Shown piece after piece: positions 738 to 9,426 of a stretch of DNA of 64,000 bases. Position 1 is the first letter of the stretch, and every line of letters starts with the position of its first letter. The DNA comes from Flammeovirga pectinis (GTDB taxonomy: Bacteria > Bacteroidota > Bacteroidia > Cytophagales > Flammeovirgaceae): NCBI RefSeq assembly GCF_003970675.1, contig NZ_CP034562.1:744001-808000 (forward strand), read 5' to 3'. The position numbers and the translations under genes were made by a program. The notes below the pieces were generated by a model that did not search any database, was not told where the DNA came from, and worked only from the letters and a program-made list of their open reading frames with translations.

Positions 738-769
738 TTGAATTTATCATAGTTATAGCCCTACATTTG
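738..769 (+). promoter_or_regulatory. promoter of the arginine operon
   Basis: TTG at 738-740, a 21-base spacer, then TACATTTG at 762-769. This matches the Bacteroidota vegetative promoter (TTG - about 17-23 - TAnnTTTG). Transcription should begin near 775-778, giving an arginine-operon leader of about 230 bases. This is the only candidate in the window where both elements sit at the expected distance with a perfect -7. Confidence 0.65.
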
Positions 770-780
770 ATTATCAATTT

Positions 781-897
781 ATGATAATGATAAACAAAAA
801 TACACATAGCGAACCACTGATTTTATCAGAATTTCCTGTTTTAAAGAGGGAATTTTTTGGTCGTATGTGTTCAATTGATAATCGTAAACGCCGATAA
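781..897 (+). CDS. candidate arginine leader peptide (38 codons)
   Basis: An ATG about 5 bases after the predicted transcript start opens a 38-codon frame that ends in Asn-Arg-Lys-Arg-Arg then TAA. ATG at 787 is an alternative start. Five codons are arginine (AGG, CGT, CGT, CGC, CGA); none is AGA, which is common in the neighbouring genes, and CGC/CGA are uncommon in this AT-rich DNA. The position (111 bases before the first arginine biosynthesis gene) and the terminal Arg cluster resemble amino-acid leader peptides that sense charged tRNA. No classical GC-rich terminator follows, so the mechanism is conjecture and the frame could be chance. Confidence 0.45.
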   Translation: MIMINKNTHSEPLILSEFPVLKREFFGRMCSIDNRKRR

Positions 898-905
898 TAT
901 TTCTC

Positions 906-964
906 ATTAAAAGTTGTTTTAATTTTTAAATAAAATAACAACGTACCTTTATTAAATAAGGCGT
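906..964 (+). promoter_or_regulatory. possible attenuator structures in the arginine leader
   Basis: ATTAAAA (906-912), loop GTTG, TTTTAAT (917-923), then a short T run: a weak A/T-only terminator-like hairpin. GTTGTT (913-918) can instead pair with AACAAC (937-942), which excludes the first fold. ACGCC inside the leader-peptide Arg codons (888-892) complements GGCGT (960-964). Stems are short; this is a hypothesis only. Confidence 0.25.
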
Positions 965-1008
965 AGAAAAAATCTCACTGATTTACTTACTCCTTAAGAG
1001 TTTTAGAA

Positions 1009-1620
1009 ATGACAGTAAAGAATTTAATTCAAGAAATGCAGCATATATCGAGTTTTTCAATTATTGAGGCAGACATTAATGAGCATAGAGAATATGCGAA
1101 GGATATCTGTTCTCAGATCGAAGAATCAGCAAAAGCCAGAGGTACTGGTATTGCAAAAAGAAGCATTGAATATATAGAAAATAAATTTGTAGAAGGTAAA
1201 GGAGTTATAGCAATTGCTGACGATGGTACTTTTGCAGGGTTTTGTTATATTGAGTCTTGGGGACATAATAAATATGTTGCTAACTCAGGTTTAATTGTGA
1301 ATCCTAAATTTAGAGGAACTGGTTTAGCAAAAGCGATTAAAAAGAAAGCTTTTCAACTTTCTAGAAAGAAATATCCTGATGCAAAATTATTTGGTTTAAC
1401 AACAAGTTTACCTGTAATGAGAATTAACAGTGAACTAGGGTATAGACCAGTTACATTTTCTGAATTGACAGATGATGAACAATTTTGGAAAGGTTGTCAG
1501 AGTTGTGTGAATTATGATATTCTACAACGTACTGAACGTAAGCATTGCTTATGTACAGGAATGATTTTCGATCCAAAAGATCCGAGATACAAATCAACAG
1601 TTGATACTGAAGTAGAGTAA
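1009..1620 (+). CDS. GNAT acyltransferase, probable N-acylglutamate synthase of the arginine operon
   Basis: 203 residues, first structural gene of the arginine operon, 35 bases before argG. A GNAT fold is indicated by the acyl-CoA loop VNPKFRGTGLA (about residues 98-108) and flanking strands. No canonical argA or argJ is in the operon, so this enzyme most likely makes the first acylated intermediate from glutamate; acetyl- or succinyl-CoA as donor is not decided by this sequence. Odd feature: a C-terminal cysteine set C163-x2-C166 and C180-x-C182, suggesting a metal or redox site absent from ordinary GNATs. Fold is confident; role is inferred from operon position. Confidence 0.75.
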   Translation: MTVKNLIQEMQHISSFSIIEADINEHREYAKDICSQIEESAKARGTGIAKRSIEYIENKFVEGKGVIAIADDGTFAGFCYIESWGHNKYVANSGLIVNPKFRGTGLAKAIKKKAFQLSRKKYPDAKLFGLTTSLPVMRINSELGYRPVTFSELTDDEQFWKGCQSCVNYDILQRTERKHCLCTGMIFDPKDPRYKSTVDTEVE

Positions 1621-1655: not shown

Positions 1656-2867
1656 ATGAGTAATAAAGTGGTTTTGGCCTTTAGTGGTGGATTAGATACA
1701 ACTTATTGTGTAAAGTATCTATCAGAAGAAAGAGGGTTAGAAGTGCATACCGCTATCGTTCAGACAGGAGGTTTCTCGGACGAAGAGTTGAAAGAAATTG
1801 AGGAAAAGGCTTATAAATTAGGCGTTGCTTCTCATATTACATTAGATCAAACAGAAACATTTTACGACCAATGTGTAAAATACTTGGTATTCGGAAATGC
1901 TTTAAGATATAACACTTATCCATTATCTGTAAGTGCAGAGCGTGTATTCCAAGCTTTGGCAATTGCAGAATATGCTAAGAAAATTGATGCAGATAGTATT
2001 GCTCATGGATCTACTGGTGCTGGTAACGACCAAATCCGTTTTGATATGGCTTTTAAAATTATCTGCCCAGAGGCTGAAATTATTACACCTATTAGAGATA
2101 ATCAATTATCACGTCAAGATGAAATTGATTACTTAATTGCTAAAGGTGTTGATGGTGATTGGTCTAAATCTATGTACTCTATTAATCAAGGTTTATGGGG
2201 TACATCTGTTGGAGGTAAAGAAACTTTAGGTTCTCGTAATACATTACCAGAAGAAGCTTTCCCAACGCAGGTAACTGAAACAATTCCAAAGAAACTTAGT
2301 TTAACATTCGAGAAAGGTGAACTAGTAGGTATCGATGGAAAGATTTTTGACAAGCCAGTTCAGGCAATTCAAGAATTAAACAAAATTGCTTCTCCATTTG
2401 GTATCGGAAGAGACATTCATGTGGGTGATACTATTATTGGTATTAAAGGTAGAGTTGGTTTTGAAGCTGCTGCACCTTTACTAACTATTAAGGCACACCA
2501 CTTGTTAGAGAAGCATACTTTGGCAAAATGGCAATTGTATTGGAAAGAGCAATTAGGTAACTACTATGGTATGTTAACGCACGAAGGACAATGGATTGAT
2601 CCTGTAATGCGTAATATCGAAAAGTTCCTAGCAGATACACAAGATCACGTAACAGGTGAAGTATTTGTAACATTACATCCTTACAGATTTGAATTAGAGG
2701 GAATCGAGTCTAAATATGATTTGATGAACAGTACATTCGGAGCTTATGGTGAAATGAACAATGCTTGGACTGGTGAAGATGCTCGTGGCTTTGCAACAAT
2801 TTTAGCAAATCAAAACATGATCTTCGGTAAAGTAAAAGAAGCTGCCGAAGAGAAGGTTTCTGAATAG
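1656..2867 (+). CDS. argG: argininosuccinate synthase
   Basis: 403 residues, normal length. Joins citrulline and aspartate with ATP to give argininosuccinate in the cytoplasm, the penultimate arginine step. The N-type ATP pyrophosphatase P-loop AFSGGLDTT (residues 8-16) is intact, and HGSTGAGNDQIRFD carries the citrulline/aspartate-binding segment. It is second in the operon and is followed by a terminator-like hairpin before argC, so it could be transcribed in excess of the downstream genes. Confidence 0.96.
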   Translation: MSNKVVLAFSGGLDTTYCVKYLSEERGLEVHTAIVQTGGFSDEELKEIEEKAYKLGVASHITLDQTETFYDQCVKYLVFGNALRYNTYPLSVSAERVFQALAIAEYAKKIDADSIAHGSTGAGNDQIRFDMAFKIICPEAEIITPIRDNQLSRQDEIDYLIAKGVDGDWSKSMYSINQGLWGTSVGGKETLGSRNTLPEEAFPTQVTETIPKKLSLTFEKGELVGIDGKIFDKPVQAIQELNKIASPFGIGRDIHVGDTIIGIKGRVGFEAAAPLLTIKAHHLLEKHTLAKWQLYWKEQLGNYYGMLTHEGQWIDPVMRNIEKFLADTQDHVTGEVFVTLHPYRFELEGIESKYDLMNSTFGAYGEMNNAWTGEDARGFATILANQNMIFGKVKEAAEEKVSE

Positions 2868-2971: not shown

Positions 2972-3961
2972 ATGAAAGTAGGAATCATCGGTGGTGCTGG
3001 TATGACTGGCGGAGAATTATTAAGAGTATTAATTAACCACCCTGAAGTTGAAATTGCATATGTTCATAGCCGTAGTCAGGTAGGAAAGGCTGTTCACAAC
3101 TCACATAAAGATTTATTTGGTGAAACTGATTTAGTTTTTACTGGTGATATTGGACAAGCAGAAGTAGTTTTCTTGTGTTTAGGACATGGTGAATCTGTTA
3201 AGTTTTTAGAAGATAATACATTCCCTGCAGAGACTGTGATTATTGACCTTAGTCAAGATTTCAGGTTGGGCGAAGGAATTGTTCAAGATAGATCTATGAA
3301 AATCGGTGATCGTGAGTTTATTTACGGTTTACCAGAATTACAAAGAGAGGCAATTAAATCTGCTAAAAATATTGCTAACCCTGGTTGTTTTGCAACAGCT
3401 ATTCAGATTGCATTATTACCATTAGCTGCAGCCCAAAAATTAAATAGCGAAGTACACATTAGTGCAATTACAGGTTCTACAGGAGCAGGTGTTAAGTTAA
3501 TGGCTAGTACAGCTTTTACTTGGAGAACAAGTAACATTTCTCATTATAAAGCATTTAACCATCAACATCTTTTAGAAATTGGTCAGACAATGAATCAATT
3601 ACAAGATGGGTTCAATCATAAGATTAATTTTATTCCTTACAGAGGAAATTTCACAAGAGGAATTTTAGCTTCTTGTTATTTAAAATCTGATTTATCTCAA
3701 GAAGAAGCCGTAAAATTATTTAAAGATTATTACGGTGATGCTGCATTTACACATGTAATAGACGGAGCACTTGATTTAAAATTGGTTGTAAATACAAATA
3801 GAGGGTTTATCAGCATTGAAAAGCATGATGATACATTATTAGTTACATCTGCAATTGATAATCTTCTAAAAGGAGCAGTTGGACAAGCAGTTCAGAACAT
3901 GAACTTAATTTTTGGTCTTGACGAAAAGTTAGGATTAAACTTAAAGCCAATGGCATTCTAA
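2972..3961 (+). CDS. argC: N-acyl-gamma-glutamyl-phosphate reductase
   Basis: 329 residues. NADPH-dependent reduction of N-acylglutamyl phosphate to the semialdehyde. The N-terminal Rossmann motif GIIGGAGMTGGEL and the catalytic cysteine in NPGCFATA (Cys139) are present; GSTGAGVK follows in the substrate domain. Starts 40 bases after the hairpin behind argG and lies 29 bases before argD. Whether the acyl group is acetyl or succinyl depends on the pathway (see argF'). Confidence 0.95.
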   Translation: MKVGIIGGAGMTGGELLRVLINHPEVEIAYVHSRSQVGKAVHNSHKDLFGETDLVFTGDIGQAEVVFLCLGHGESVKFLEDNTFPAETVIIDLSQDFRLGEGIVQDRSMKIGDREFIYGLPELQREAIKSAKNIANPGCFATAIQIALLPLAAAQKLNSEVHISAITGSTGAGVKLMASTAFTWRTSNISHYKAFNHQHLLEIGQTMNQLQDGFNHKINFIPYRGNFTRGILASCYLKSDLSQEEAVKLFKDYYGDAAFTHVIDGALDLKLVVNTNRGFISIEKHDDTLLVTSAIDNLLKGAVGQAVQNMNLIFGLDEKLGLNLKPMAF

Positions 3962-3990: not shown

Positions 3991-5133
3991 ATGGCAAATT
4001 TATTTGATGTATATCCTCTATTCAATATTGAACCTGTTAAAGGAGAGGATGTATGGATTTACGATAAAAATGATGAGAAATATTTAGATTTATATGGAGG
4101 TCATGCAGTGATTTCTATTGGTCATTCTCATCCTCATTATAAACAAAAATTAAGTGATCAATTAGATAACTTAGTTTTCTACTCAAACAGTATTCAAAAC
4201 CCACTTCAAAAGGAGTTGGCAGAGAAGCTAGGAGAGGCATCTTGTTATCACGATTGGAATTTATTTTTATGTAACTCAGGAGCAGAAGCAAACGAGAATG
4301 CATTTAAATTAGCATCATTCTATAACAAGAGAACAAAGATTATTTCTTTTACTAAAGGTTTTCATGGTAGAACATCATTAGCTGTAGCTACTACTGATAA
4401 CCCAAATATTGTAGCACCTGTAAATGCAGTGCACGATACTTTAATTCTTCCTTTTAATGATGTTGATGCTTTGAAAAAGGCATTTTCTGAAAGTGAAATC
4501 TGTGCCGTAATTATTGAAGGTATCCAAGGTATTGGAGGTATTTATGAGCCAACAGAAGAATTTATGCAAACAATAAGAACACTTTGTGATGAAACAAATG
4601 CTGTTTTTATTGCTGATGAAATTCAGTCAGGCTACGGAAGAAGCGGGCGTTTCTTTGCTCACCAATGGTACAATGTTACACCAGATGTTGTAACAATGGC
4701 TAAAGGTATGGGTAATGGTTTTCCAATTGGAGGTGTATTTATTTCTCCAAAGTTTGAAGCTTCTTACGGAATGTTAGGGACAACTTTTGGCGGTAATCAT
4801 TTAGCATGTGCTGCAGGTATTGCTGTTCTTGATGTTTTAGCAAAAGAGAACTTGATTGAAAAATCAGTTACTTTGGGAGAGTGGATAGTTGACCAGCTGA
4901 AGGGAAATCCAGCAATTAAAGAAATTAGAGGTAAGGGTCTAATGTTAGGTATCGAAATGAATGAAGCAGTTGCACCAATGCGTAAGCAATTGCTTTTTGA
5001 TCATAAGATTTTCACTGGTGCATCATCTAATAAAAATACAATTAGATTGCTACCCCCTTTAACATTAACACAAGAACAAGCACAACTTTTTGTAGATGCT
5101 TTTAATGCAGTTACTAAAGAATTAGCAGAATAA
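3991..5133 (+). CDS. argD: N-acylornithine aminotransferase (class III, PLP)
   Basis: 380 residues. Transfers the amino group of glutamate to the acylglutamate semialdehyde, giving N-acylornithine. Class-III aminotransferase features: CNSGAEANENA (phosphate-binding), IADEIQSGYGRSG, and the PLP lysine in TMAKGMGNGFP (Lys238). Four bases separate it from argF', so the two are probably translationally coupled. Confidence 0.94.
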   Translation: MANLFDVYPLFNIEPVKGEDVWIYDKNDEKYLDLYGGHAVISIGHSHPHYKQKLSDQLDNLVFYSNSIQNPLQKELAEKLGEASCYHDWNLFLCNSGAEANENAFKLASFYNKRTKIISFTKGFHGRTSLAVATTDNPNIVAPVNAVHDTLILPFNDVDALKKAFSESEICAVIIEGIQGIGGIYEPTEEFMQTIRTLCDETNAVFIADEIQSGYGRSGRFFAHQWYNVTPDVVTMAKGMGNGFPIGGVFISPKFEASYGMLGTTFGGNHLACAAGIAVLDVLAKENLIEKSVTLGEWIVDQLKGNPAIKEIRGKGLMLGIEMNEAVAPMRKQLLFDHKIFTGASSNKNTIRLLPPLTLTQEQAQLFVDAFNAVTKELAE

Positions 5134-5137
5134 GATC

Positions 5138-6088
5138 ATGGATAAATTTTTATCGGTAAACGATGTTCAAAATTTAGATGAACTCGTAAAAATAGCCTTA
5201 GAGATTAAAGCGAACCCTGTTGCTTTTGGTGACGTAGGGAAAAATAAAATGCTTGGTTTGATTTTTTTCAATCCTAGTTTAAGAACAAGATTAAGTACGC
5301 AACGTGCCGCACGCCATTTAGGAATGGATGTGATGGTAATGAATATTGATAAAGAAGGTTGGAAGATTGAAACACAAGATGGTGTTATAATGGATGGCGA
5401 TAAGGCAGAGCATTTAAAAGATGCAGCAGCAGTTATCAGTCAGTATTGTGATATAATTGGTGTGCGTTCGTTCCCTAACTTACAAAATAAGGAAGACGAT
5501 TATGCAGATGCAGTGATGAAAGACTTTGTGAAGTACTCTCACTCTCCAATTGTAAGTTTAGAATCTGCAACACGTCACCCGTTACAATCTTTAGCAGATT
5601 TGGTTACAATTAGAGAAAACTCTGATAAACCAAAGAAGAAAGTTGTTTTAACATGGGCACCACATCCAAGAGCATTACCTCAGGCTGTTCCAAACTCTTT
5701 TGCAGAATGGATGAATGCCGCAGATGATGTAGAATTAGTGATTACAGCACCAGAAGGGTATGATTTAGATCCTGAATTTGCAGGAGATGCAACGTTTACA
5801 AATAACCAAGACGAAGCATTGAAAGATGCAGATTTTGTATATGCTAAAAACTGGTCATCAACTACTGAATATGGTAAAGTTGTTTGCAAGGATAACTCTT
5901 GGGAAGTAACGGAAGAGAAAATGGCATTAACAAACAATGGTAAGTTTATGCACTGTCTTCCAATTCGTAGAAATGTTGTTGCTAGTGATGGAGTTTTAGA
6001 TAGCGAAAACTCATTAATTATTGCAGAAGCAAACAATAGAACATTTGCTGCAGCAGCCGTTTTAAAAACAATTTTAGAGAATAAATAA
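5138..6088 (+). CDS. argF': N-acylornithine carbamoyltransferase, predicted succinylornithine type
   Basis: 316 residues. Carbamoylates N-acyl-L-ornithine to N-acylcitrulline, replacing ornithine carbamoyltransferase. The carbamoyl-phosphate motif SLRTR (residues 47-51) and the HCLP loop are intact. The long match to the Bacteroides fragilis succinylornithine enzyme type (for example HPLQSLADLVTI and WAPHPRALPQAVPNSFAEWM) separates it from OTCase. The specificity position is Ala90 in MDGDKAEHL. In the characterised enzymes this site is Glu92 for acetylornithine and Pro90 for succinylornithine, and a small residue such as Ala at this site was reported to give succinylornithine preference. That literature is recalled, not checked here. 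Confidence 0.93.
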   Translation: MDKFLSVNDVQNLDELVKIALEIKANPVAFGDVGKNKMLGLIFFNPSLRTRLSTQRAARHLGMDVMVMNIDKEGWKIETQDGVIMDGDKAEHLKDAAAVISQYCDIIGVRSFPNLQNKEDDYADAVMKDFVKYSHSPIVSLESATRHPLQSLADLVTIRENSDKPKKKVVLTWAPHPRALPQAVPNSFAEWMNAADDVELVITAPEGYDLDPEFAGDATFTNNQDEALKDADFVYAKNWSSTTEYGKVVCKDNSWEVTEEKMALTNNGKFMHCLPIRRNVVASDGVLDSENSLIIAEANNRTFAAAAVLKTILENK

Positions 6089-6132: not shown

Positions 6133-6912
6133 ATGAAAATATCAGTCATTAAAGTTGGTGGAAATGTAATAAATGATGAAGCTGCTTTAGCTTCATTTTT
6201 AGACCAATTTTCTCAGCTAGAAGGAGCAAAAGTATTAGTGCATGGCGGTGGTAAATTAGCTACTGCAATGGCACAACGTTTAGGTATCGAACCAAAAATG
6301 GTTGATGGTAGACGAGTTACTGATGCAGAGACTTTAGAAGTAGTGACCATGGTATATGGCGGATTAGTAAACAAAAGAATTATTGCTCAGTTACAAGCAA
6401 AAGGTTGTAATGCAATAGGACTTACGGGAGCTGATGCTAACATCATAGAAGCGGATAAACGTACAGGATGGGAAATTGATTATGGTTTTGTTGGTGATGT
6501 TCGTAAAGCCAATGCAGCACCAATTATCAATTTTGCTGAACAGAATATTACGCCAGTAATTGCTCCTTTAACACACGATGGTAAAGGACAGTTATTTAAT
6601 ACAAATGCAGATACAATGGCACAAGCTGTTGCTGTAGCTTTAGGTAAAGCAGGACATGAAGTTTCTCTTCGTTACTGTTTTGAAAAGGCAGGTGTACTGT
6701 TAGATGTAAATGATGACAACTCACTTGTTCCTATTCTTAATCCATCAAAATTTGCTCAATTTAAAGAAGAGGGTATTGTTGCAGATGGTATGTTGCCAAA
6801 GTTAAAAAATGCATTTGATGCAATCGACGCTTCTGTTTCAGAGGTGTGGTTAGGAAAAGTAGAAGGAGTATTAGCAAATTCTCCTGTGGGTACTAAAATC
6901 ATAGGAGCATAA
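6133..6912 (+). CDS. argB: N-acylglutamate kinase
   Basis: 259 residues of the amino-acid kinase family. Phosphorylates the gamma-carboxylate of N-acylglutamate. The N-terminal KVGGNVI, the HGGGK nucleotide/substrate loop and DGRRVTD are visible. No N-terminal helix of the arginine-sensitive hexameric type is present (the protein starts directly at the first kinase strand), so feedback inhibition by arginine cannot be assumed. It is bracketed by hairpins at 6095 and 6938. Confidence 0.94.
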   Translation: MKISVIKVGGNVINDEAALASFLDQFSQLEGAKVLVHGGGKLATAMAQRLGIEPKMVDGRRVTDAETLEVVTMVYGGLVNKRIIAQLQAKGCNAIGLTGADANIIEADKRTGWEIDYGFVGDVRKANAAPIINFAEQNITPVIAPLTHDGKGQLFNTNADTMAQAVAVALGKAGHEVSLRYCFEKAGVLLDVNDDNSLVPILNPSKFAQFKEEGIVADGMLPKLKNAFDAIDASVSEVWLGKVEGVLANSPVGTKIIGA

Positions 6913-7020: not shown

Positions 7021-8091
7021 ATGAAACATCAAGAACTTACAGATAAAGCGATTGCCTTATTGAAAAGCATGATTGCTACCAAATCATTAAGTAGAGAGGA
7101 AGATGAAGTTGCTGCTATTGTAAAGCAGTTTTTTATTGATAATGGTGTAGAAGTACATCAGAATAAAAGAAACTTATGGGCTAAGAATATTCATTTTGAT
7201 GAAAACAAGCCTACCTTTTTATTAAACTCACATATAGATACTGTTAAGCCAAATAAAGATTGGACAAAAGACCCTTTTAATCCTGAAGTGGAAGAAGGGA
7301 AACTATATGGTTTAGGAAGTAACGATGCTGGCGGACCTTTAGTAAGTTTAATAGCAACGTTCCTGTATTTTTATAAGCAAGAAAACTTACCTTTTAATCT
7401 TGTAGTTTGTGCTTCGGCAGAAGAAGAGGTTTCTGGAAAAGAAGGTATTGCTGATGTATGGCAACATTTACCAAAAATTGATTTTGCAATCGTTGGAGAA
7501 CCGACTTTAATGCAGTTGGCTGTAGCAGAAAAAGGATTGATGGTATTGGATTGTGTAGCACACGGAGAATCTGGACATGCTGCTAGAAATGAAGGTGTAA
7601 ATGCATTGTACAAAGCACTTGATGATATTAATTGGTTTAGATCATTTTCATTCTCAAAAGAATCAAAAACTTTGGGACCAGTAAAAATGTCTGTTACCGT
7701 TATTCAGTCGGGTACTCAACACAATGTAGTACCATCAGAATGTAAATATGTAGTAGATGTACGTACTACAGATGCCTATTCAAACCAAGAAACTTTAGAG
7801 ATTATAAAAGAACATGTGGGGTCTACGGTTACACCTAGATCAACTCGATTAAATCCTTCTGGAGCACCTTTAGATCATCCTGTTATAAAAGCAGGTTTGG
7901 CATTAAATAAAGAAGCTTATGGTTCACCAACGTTGTCAGATCAAGCATTAATGCCTGTTCCTAGTTTAAAATTAGGACCGGGTAATTCGGCTAGATCACA
8001 TACAGCGAATGAATATATTGGTTTGGATGAGATAGCAAACGGTATAAATGATTACATTCGTATATTGGAAGATGCAGCTAAATTAATGTAG
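7021..8091 (+). CDS. argE: M20-family deacylase (N-acylcitrulline/N-acylornithine deacylase)
   Basis: 356 residues. A dinuclear zinc M20 hydrolase with its metal ligands in order: His71 in NSHIDTV, Asp102 in GSNDAGG, the catalytic and ligand pair Glu134-Glu135 in SAEEEVSG, and Glu160 in GEPT. Since the operon encodes an acylornithine carbamoyltransferase, the natural substrate should be N-acylcitrulline (succinyl- if the Ala90 inference holds) rather than acetylornithine. It follows the terminator behind argB and lies 45 bases before argH. Confidence 0.88.
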   Translation: MKHQELTDKAIALLKSMIATKSLSREEDEVAAIVKQFFIDNGVEVHQNKRNLWAKNIHFDENKPTFLLNSHIDTVKPNKDWTKDPFNPEVEEGKLYGLGSNDAGGPLVSLIATFLYFYKQENLPFNLVVCASAEEEVSGKEGIADVWQHLPKIDFAIVGEPTLMQLAVAEKGLMVLDCVAHGESGHAARNEGVNALYKALDDINWFRSFSFSKESKTLGPVKMSVTVIQSGTQHNVVPSECKYVVDVRTTDAYSNQETLEIIKEHVGSTVTPRSTRLNPSGAPLDHPVIKAGLALNKEAYGSPTLSDQALMPVPSLKLGPGNSARSHTANEYIGLDEIANGINDYIRILEDAAKLM

Positions 8092-8136: not shown

Positions 8137-9426
8137 ATGAAACTTTGGCAAAAATCATCGTATACAGTCAATGAAAAAGTTGATAAATTTACGGTAGGAA
8201 AAGATAGAGACTTAGATATTTTACTTGCTCCTTATGATGTAAAAGGATCAATGGCTCATGCTACAATGTTGGCAGAAGTTGGGTTATTGACTGTAGAAGA
8301 TAAGGATACTTTGCTTAAAGGTCTTCAAGAAATTTATGAAGAAATTGAGAAAGGTGAGTTTGTAATTGAAGATGGAGTGGAGGATGTTCACTCACAAGTA
8401 GAAATGCTATTAACACAACGTTATGGTGATGTTGGAAAGCGTCTACACTCAGGTCGTTCTAGAAACGATCAAGTGCTCTTAGATCTAAAATTATATTTGC
8501 GTGATGCTATAAAAAATGTAGCAGACAACACAAAATCACTTTTTGATACATTAATTGAGAAATCTGAGGAGTTTAAAGACTACTTGATGCCGGGTTATAC
8601 GCACATGCAAGTAGCCATGCCTTCTTCTTTTGGTTTATGGTTAGGTGCTTATGCAGAATCATTAGTAGATGATATGGTAATGCTCAAAGCTGCATACGAT
8701 ATTACAGATAGAAACCCTCTAGGTTCTGCTGCTGGTTATGGCTCATCTTTCCCATTAAATAGAACACGTACTACAGAGTTAATGGATTTCCAATCTATGG
8801 CTGTTAATGTTGTATATGCACAAATGGGACGTGGTAAAACAGAATATCATGTAGCCAATGCAATGGCTTCTGTAGCGGCAACAGTAGCTAAACTATCTAT
8901 GGATGGTTGTTTGTATGCTGGTGGCAACTTTGGGTTCCTTAAATTTCCTAATGAGTTTACAACTGGTTCTAGTATTATGCCACATAAAAAGAACCCTGAT
9001 GTATTGGAATTAACAAGAGCACGTTGTAACCAAATTACTTCTTTACCAACACAAATTATGTCGGTATTAAGTAATTTACCTGTAGGCTACCACAGAGATT
9101 TGCAACAAATTAAAGAGATGCTTTTACCTGCATTCGAAATGTTAAACGATTGTCTTGAAATGACAAAGTTGATGTTCGAAAAAATGGAACCAACAAAAGA
9201 GCTTTTACAAGCACCTATATATGATTACTTATTCTCTGTAGAAGAAGTAAATAAACTAGTTCTAAAAGGAGTTCCATTTAGAGAAGCTTATGTAATTGTA
9301 GGTGAAGGAATTGAAAAAGGCGATTACAATCCTGAACGGTCTGTAAATCATACCCATGAAGGGAGTGTTGGAAATTTAGGTAATGATATTATTAAAGCTA
9401 GAATGGAAGATATCTATTCTTTCTAG
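8137..9426 (+). CDS. argH: argininosuccinate lyase
   Basis: 429 residues. Splits argininosuccinate into arginine and fumarate. The superfamily signature GSSIMPHKKNPD, containing the catalytic serine loop, is intact, as are SGRSRNDQ and GYTHMQ. Length is slightly below the usual 450-470. Last gene of the operon; a strong terminator follows at 9450. Confidence 0.95.
   Translation: MKLWQKSSYTVNEKVDKFTVGKDRDLDILLAPYDVKGSMAHATMLAEVGLLTVEDKDTLLKGLQEIYEEIEKGEFVIEDGVEDVHSQVEMLLTQRYGDVGKRLHSGRSRNDQVLLDLKLYLRDAIKNVADNTKSLFDTLIEKSEEFKDYLMPGYTHMQVAMPSSFGLWLGAYAESLVDDMVMLKAAYDITDRNPLGSAAGYGSSFPLNRTRTTELMDFQSMAVNVVYAQMGRGKTEYHVANAMASVAATVAKLSMDGCLYAGGNFGFLKFPNEFTTGSSIMPHKKNPDVLELTRARCNQITSLPTQIMSVLSNLPVGYHRDLQQIKEMLLPAFEMLNDCLEMTKLMFEKMEPTKELLQAPIYDYLFSVEEVNKLVLKGVPFREAYVIVGEGIEKGDYNPERSVNHTHEGSVGNLGNDIIKARMEDIYSF

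Follow-up and report, generated by a model that had tools for sequence, protein, structure and literature searches.

How arginine biosynthesis is controlled where no arginine repressor is detected is the question raised by the left end of the window, i.e., the whole 64,000-nt stretch of Flammeovirga pectinis DNA analysed here. ArgR is the usual arginine repressor and answers the same metabolic signal. A search for the ArgR C-terminal domain (PF02863) found nothing in the own genome or the 192 genomes of its order, and the control for this search returned PF02863 matches in 8 of 14 control genomes. The initial annotation had proposed that a leader peptide controls the first arginine gene. Our analysis revealed that this finding is real and wider than the annotation had thought, and that the region appears to work like a ribosome-mediated attenuator. 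Judged from its sequence, the region is very probably the leader of the arginine cluster, in which ribosome-mediated attenuation would sense Arg codons.

A putative leader ORF with terminal Arg codons precedes the arginine cluster

The left end of the window holds an eight-gene arginine cluster, all on one strand, within a 6.68-Mb genome. The eight genes are assumed to form one transcript. The features of the locus are given below, with the basis of each assignment in brackets.

738..740, + strand: TTG, upstream promoter element, with a spacer of 21 nt to the −7 box (sequence)
762..769, + strand: TACATTTG, −7 box of the TAnnTTTG type (sequence match to consensus)
781..897, + strand: leader ORF, ATG start, 38 codons, MIMINKNTHSEPLILSEFPVLKREFFGRMCSIDNRKRR-stop (sequence; counterparts in relatives)
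883..894, + strand: putative regulatory Arg block CGT AAA CGC CGA, adjoining the stop codon (sequence; Arg enrichment; rare-codon use)
1009..1620, + strand: GNAT acyltransferase, first gene of the arg cluster (Pfam Acetyltransf_1, E 2.7e-07; same gene 3′ of leaders in relatives)
1656..2867, + strand: argG, argininosuccinate synthase (best family; slightly below curated cut-offs)
2972..3961, + strand: argC (family match; passes curated cut-off)
3991..5133, + strand: argD-type aminotransferase (best family; below curated cut-off)
5138..6088, + strand: N-acetylornithine carbamoyltransferase-like gene (NF003384, above cut-off)
6133..6912, + strand: argB (family match; passes curated cut-off)
7021..8091, + strand: ArgE/DapE-type deacylase (best family; below curated cut-off)
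8137..9426, + strand: argH (family match; passes curated cut-off)

Direct checks of the sequence bore out the initial annotation on the promoter (TTG-N21-TACATTTG, 738-769), on the 38-codon frame ending Asn-Arg-Lys-Arg-Arg (781-897), and on its five Arg codons, which are AGG, CGT, CGT, CGC and CGA with zero AGA. The family matches likewise agreed that the next gene is the first of the arginine cluster, with GNAT followed by argG, argC and the remaining genes; an NCBIfam search of the GNAT gene (1009-1620) gave no match. Between positions 480 and 1009, TACATTTG is the only TAnnTTTG sequence. This motif is the sigma-A −7 consensus of Flavobacterium psychrophilum according to an excerpt of PMC9723704, and it was found upstream in 37 of 103 Arg-rich leader frames, compared with 9.2 expected from mononucleotide shuffles. 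As in an attenuator, the leader ORF sits between a promoter, assigned by consensus only, and the cognate biosynthesis genes; it ends in NRKRR, 111 nt 5′ of the arginine cluster.

The Flammeovirga leaders favour rare Arg codons. AGA makes up 267 of the 474 Arg codons (56%) in the window genes, as counted in 37 ATG frames of at least 200 amino acids, and given this usage the presence of five Arg codons without AGA in the window leader has p = 0.016. In the last 12 codons of nine Flammeovirga leaders, CGA accounts for 15 of 27 Arg codons, compared with 29/474 (6%) in window genes, and AGA for 2 of 27, so that these tails are written mostly with CGA, CGT and CGC. Across the order, with one leader per genus, the Arg-tail codons were AGG (67), CGA (31), CGC (30), CGT (22), CGG (13) and AGA (11). 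Theoretical work by Elf and co-workers is said to predict that certain codons react more sharply to starvation.

The Arg tail is kept in Flammeovirga

In all nine Flammeovirga-group genomes tabulated, GNAT is preceded by a short frame in which two or more Arg stand at the end or close to it. The leaders end in NRKRR (two genomes), FFRR (four), FYRRLRR (one), FYRRS (one) and FYRRRKRCSLW (one), the last having further residues after the Arg run, and the remainder of the peptide varies among the nine. Between L001 and L002, the closest pair, the ORF carries six base differences and zero indels, and five of the differences alter an amino acid. The closest GNAT relatives among the matches listed were the Flammeovirga loci L031-L035, at 92-95% identity. 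Comparison with the closest relative also indicated a stem inside the leader ORF:

802..870, + strand: stem within the leader ORF, 802-808 with 864-870 (comparison with closest relative)

There, a compensatory change at 803/869 (C to T at 803 and G to A at 869, turning C-G into T-A) keeps the stem and alters both codons.

These comparisons bear on the possibility of nascent-peptide arrest. In the fungal arginine attenuator peptide, an upstream frame controls an arginine gene, and the peptide sequence arrests the ribosome when arginine is present. A leader of this type would sense arginine itself instead of Arg-codon starvation, and it resembles the present leaders as an upstream frame linked with arginine genes. 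However, the peptide body varies freely among close relatives with only the terminal Arg cluster kept, which differs from a conserved arrest sequence, and the Flammeovirga Arg cluster is rich in rare codons. We therefore consider arrest by the peptide very unlikely and prefer attenuation at the Arg codons.

Arg enrichment extends through the order and the class

A match to the GNAT protein was found in 138 of 192 genomes of the order, and 144 upstream loci were tabulated, with statistics based on one locus per genus (63 genera); upstream-frame statistics exclude paralogues (three loci) and loci under 200 nt. As Arg score we took the highest number of Arg residues that any upstream frame of a locus has among its 12 final codons, and dinucleotide shuffles and the opposite strand served as controls. 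The results showed a mean score of 3.0 over the 63 genera, compared with 1.33-1.36 in shuffles (z 17.8 in the first run and 18.4 in the repeat). At least three Arg were present in 42/63 genera, compared with 8-10% in shuffles and 9/63 genera on the opposite strand; 21/63 fall short, and genera of the order without a clear leader include f9 g42 and f22 g31. The next residue after Arg was Pro (z 4.8-5.5), with every other residue below 2. Examples of leader tails in the order are VRRFRRP, ILPVRRP, FRFRSVRT, SPLRRNRFTFRV, IRRRRRFIFRV and RRRPRRPRA. In G040, G055 and G141, a second, more distant GNAT copy (L217, L219 and L220) was seen without an evident leader of the Arg type.

In the class, 109 of 296 genomes gave a GNAT match. 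Outside the order, 80 of 96 GNAT genomes were analysed, leaving out nine with an adjacent argR as well as G220, G239, G373, G381, G406, G462 and G468. The 51 genera of these other orders had a mean Arg score of 3.04, compared with 1.46 in shuffles (z 15.9), and at least three Arg were present in 37/51, compared with 12% expected and 12/51 on the opposite strand. The remaining 14/51 fall short, and genera without a clear leader include f36 g109 and f72 g149. Examples of tails are PPSRRRVFIPRV, AFRPRRPRR, SRRRPMFRSRI and LRRRRPMRRR. A comparison set of 44 GNAT loci, mostly Bacteroidales by title, showed no Arg signal (11/44, z −2.5); this set comprised L041-L110 with an ATG start, minus presumed Cytophagales (by title) and L046, and was not sorted by ArgR.

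The conservation of an Arg-ending leader ORF before the same GNAT gene, strongly Arg-specific, is thus supported in both the order and the class, and the conserved short frame predicted by the initial annotation was found well past the genus. A/T-rich DNA has many short frames, among which a chance ORF without function could occur, but z values of about 18 and 16 in two separate genus sets leave this explanation a practically negligible probability. Once relatives are compared, the leader frame itself is far beyond chance.

The Arg leader and ArgR in the class

ArgR control resembles the present case in acting on the same arg gene cluster, and differs from it in that ArgR has no match in the own genome or the 192 genomes of the order. 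The ArgR domain was present in 14 of 296 class genomes, ten of which also have GNAT. In nine of these ten (G227, G264, G293, G322, G347, G370, G410, G460 and G476), argR lies directly 5′ of GNAT on the same strand, the ArgR match preceding that of GNAT by 53-167 nt, so that a leader would hardly fit between them. In the remaining genome, G296, the ArgR match is weak, contains a stop and lies elsewhere. In L066, L094 and L099, the frame before GNAT reads like ArgR and may encode it. This distribution would be consistent with an exchange of repressor for leader on the same genes, with argR in one part of the class and the Arg leader in much of the rest. The presence of an Arg-ending frame before the arginine genes of this marine bacterium and of most relatives tested suggests that, where ArgR is not found, arginine is sensed through the speed of the ribosome over the terminal run of Arg codons.

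RNA structures downstream of the leader in Flammeovirga

The following elements were located between the Arg codons and the GNAT gene.

888..892, + strand: ACGCC in the Arg codons, complement of GGCGT at 960-964 (sequence; pairing not significant alone)
906..923, + strand: A/T hairpin ATTAAAA-GTTG-TTTTAAT (sequence; outermost pair lost in L002 by T923A)
913..942, + strand: alternative hairpin GTTGTTTTA...TAACAAC (sequence; kept in L002 with T936A)
960..964, + strand: GGCGT, possible partner of the Arg codons (sequence)
990..1000, + strand: small hairpin CTCCTTAAGAG just 5′ of the GNAT gene (counterparts CCCTTGATAGGG, CCCTTTTAGGG and CCCCGATTTCGGG in L007-L009, by eye)

The initial annotation had drawn a switch from two mutually exclusive hairpins and a pairing of ACGCC with GGCGT. 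Both hairpins are present, and they are mutually exclusive because the 5′ arm of 913-942 is common to both, but the first ends at 923 and not at 927. The complementarity of 888-892 and 960-964 is also there on direct inspection. The stems had been called weak, and in the window they are indeed unremarkable as judged from one sequence, since 28 of 200 shuffles paired the Arg segment with downstream sequence equally well. Similarly weak results were obtained for L002 (23/200) and L008 (21/200). A long pairing of the Arg segment was seen in two near relatives, with 1/200 shuffles as good in L007 and 0/200 in L009, and in L019 (0/200), which belongs to another genus of the same family. The pairing partner in these three loci is a site 59-78 nt before the gene; in L009, the Arg segment was placed by hand on the RRRKR codons, 5′ of its stop. 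For L003-L006, 171, 184, 50 and 18 of 200 shuffles were as good, L003 and L004 thus pairing worse than most shuffles. A duplex of Arg segment and downstream sequence was rejected as a general switch, being strong in just 3 of the 13 loci tested. A motif like ACATATCRCCC was seen by eye inside the leader in L007, L008 and L010, and after the leader in L015, L292 and L357.

A second hairpin follows the leader in other genera

In many genera, a hairpin begins at the last Arg codon, AGG, with the stop codon lying inside the hairpin or 3′ of it; forms seen by eye include AGGTCC-GNRA-GGACC, AGGG-TTTGA-CCCT, AGGCG...CGCCT and AGGCC-NTA-GGCC. A second hairpin, with the loop C-YAYGY-G, follows the leader. 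Its pairing was tested independently on 25 rows chosen on the loop motif alone, one per genus, for which 42 of 95 candidate loci were dropped (no motif or leader; 16 of these from genus f13 g20). At least five of seven pairs formed in 21 of the 25 motif-bearing genera, and 143 of 175 positions paired (82%), compared with 58-82 (33-47%) when the partner was slid. For L117, L187 and L205, the motif search had picked up something other than the C-YAYGY-G hairpin. The distance from the stop codon to the downstream loop is 1-36 nt, 9-24 nt in clear cases, and in many genera the hairpin keeps a nearly fixed distance 3′ of the Arg codons. In 39 hairpin rows, changes on both sides were found at all five variable pairs, and the covariation score was 0.637, compared with 0.211 in shuffles; these counts are circular for pairing as such, because the rows had been picked for at least five pairs.

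A model built from the 39 rows (R1) gave 13 matches with E below 1e-4 over 98 genomes, one per genome and each directly before GNAT. All 13 matched genomes had contributed rows to the model, so R1 shows only that strict filters turned up no second strong site there. No C-YAYGY-G hairpin turned up in Flammeovirga, and R1 gave no match in the own genome. Over 50 genera, the leader stretch folded more stably than its shuffles did (mean z −1.54). No Rfam family reached its gathering score in the window or the leader loci of eight relatives, the sole match of this type being an animal miRNA family below the gathering score. A further conserved hairpin between leader and gene, CGGAT-AACNACGTC-TCCG, was seen by eye in one family, in L178, L181, L187, L190, L191 and L193, with CGGG/CCCG in L181.

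As AGG forms the 5′ arm of a hairpin in many relatives, the Arg signal is partly common to the stem, and the frame might be untranslated, a DNA operator or RNA structure that spells Arg by accident. However, the Arg tails of the order use six codons and not AGG alone, the Flammeovirga tails consist mostly of CGA, CGT and CGC and lack the C-YAYGY-G element, and ArgR was not found. Compared with a translated leader, this explanation appears extremely unlikely.

Proposed mechanism and output step

In the mechanism that we propose for the translated leader, transcription would start near 776, and a ribosome would translate the 38 codons of the leader. A shortage of charged Arg-tRNA would make this ribosome stall on the Arg codons just 5′ of the stop codon, most of them rare in the genus. 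The stalled ribosome would then cover the Arg segment, which may otherwise pair downstream, and the resulting change in the fold of the downstream RNA would allow the genes to be expressed. When arginine is sufficient, the ribosome would clear the leader, and expression would presumably be low.

The attenuation reading of the initial annotation is supported in part by the conserved, Arg-specific leader without an ArgR match, and is weakened by the lack of an intrinsic terminator in the window, where the best candidate reached −1.0 kcal/mol, compared with −1.8 in shuffles. As no intrinsic terminator is visible, the window leader is filed as a variant of an attenuator and not as a classic member. 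Across 55 arg leaders, intrinsic terminators were not clearly enriched (mean −4.1, compared with −3.3 in shuffles). In other orders, terminator candidates of −10 kcal/mol or lower were seen in 6 of 53 leaders, some of them a long way 3′. A canonical intrinsic terminator soon after the leader, GGCTTGCC-loop-GGCAGGCC followed by a T run, was found in L324 and L337, two related loci of another family. By eye, GGCAGGC at the leader end of these two loci could pair with the terminator 5′ arm.

Since just two loci, both from one different family, have a canonical terminator directly after the leader, Rho-dependent termination or translational control is likelier in Flammeovirga. We would rank Rho-dependent termination first, translational control second and hidden intrinsic termination third. 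Rho might act in the stretch 3′ of the leader, where C exceeds G modestly in 50 genera (0.25/0.17 at 0-40 nt and 0.22/0.13 at 40-80 nt after the stop); the stretch 5′ of the leader is also richer in C than in G (0.18/0.14), and Rho-dependent output is a plausible candidate that falls short of being probable. In a translational output, the stalled or released ribosome would alter the accessibility of the GNAT start, without premature termination. Small hairpins with exchanged stems (CTC/GAG, CCCT/AGGG and CCCGA/TCGGG) just before the start codon in Flammeovirga point in this direction, as does the fruitless terminator search in the window, but these are short hairpins compared by eye alone, and the canonical terminators of the two loci mentioned above argue against it; we regard it as rather unlikely. 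More broadly, and tentatively, much of the class Bacteroidia might control arginine without ArgR by a leader attenuator lacking a terminator, with the C-YAYGY-G hairpin as a new output element for Rho, the ribosome or an RNA-binding protein.

Relation to known systems

The trp, his, leu and ilv attenuators resemble the present locus in having a short leader ORF with clustered codons for their own amino acid and adjoining hairpins, placed before biosynthesis genes. They differ from it in that the case here concerns arginine and Bacteroidota, with no intrinsic terminator in the window, no enrichment of terminators in relatives, and a conserved C-YAYGY-G hairpin in many relatives. Naville and Gautheret (2010; PMC2965389), leaving ermC aside, knew of no leader peptide system shown beyond Proteobacteria and Actinobacteria until their own case in Firmicutes. 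The initial annotation had called leader-peptide attenuation of arg operons unfamiliar in this phylum. Among the open-access matches listed, we found no arginine case there. A single sentence in the excerpt of PMC9723704 mentions 'strong clues' for leader peptides before amino-acid biosynthesis operons in F. psychrophilum. These leaders share the phylum and the kind of operon with the present ones; the passage names no amino acid, so arginine may be among them. In B. thetaiotaomicron, short ORFs resembling leader peptides are reported in long 5′ UTRs, and the main text of that report never mentions arginine. The Bacteroid-trp RNA (RF01692), listed in the excerpt of PMC2864571 as a cis-regulatory candidate in Bacteroidetes, differs in that the window and the eight relatives' loci match no Rfam family at the gathering score.

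Among the open-access matches listed, no arginine leader peptide in Bacteroidota is described; an earlier description elsewhere is possible. The leader is a candidate answer to how arginine is sensed in Bacteroidota without detected ArgR, and it would widen the range of leader-peptide attenuation by arginine and by a phylum for which the open-access literature searched holds only hints. Where no terminator is evident in the leader, the conserved hairpin also provides a lead on how attenuation may end in Bacteroidota.

Frames with five His in twelve codons were seen upstream of hisG in L242, L244, L245, L251 and L253 of the same order (e.g., HHHHSH and NNHHHHH). The hisG leaders of L242 and L251 have strong terminators, and the presence of such frames with strong terminators in two genomes makes leader attenuation plausible in the order. 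The nine Flammeovirga hisG loci contain at most two His in twelve codons. Elsewhere in the own genome, outside the window, three tandem acetolactate-synthase-like genes lie at C1:4892031-4898100.
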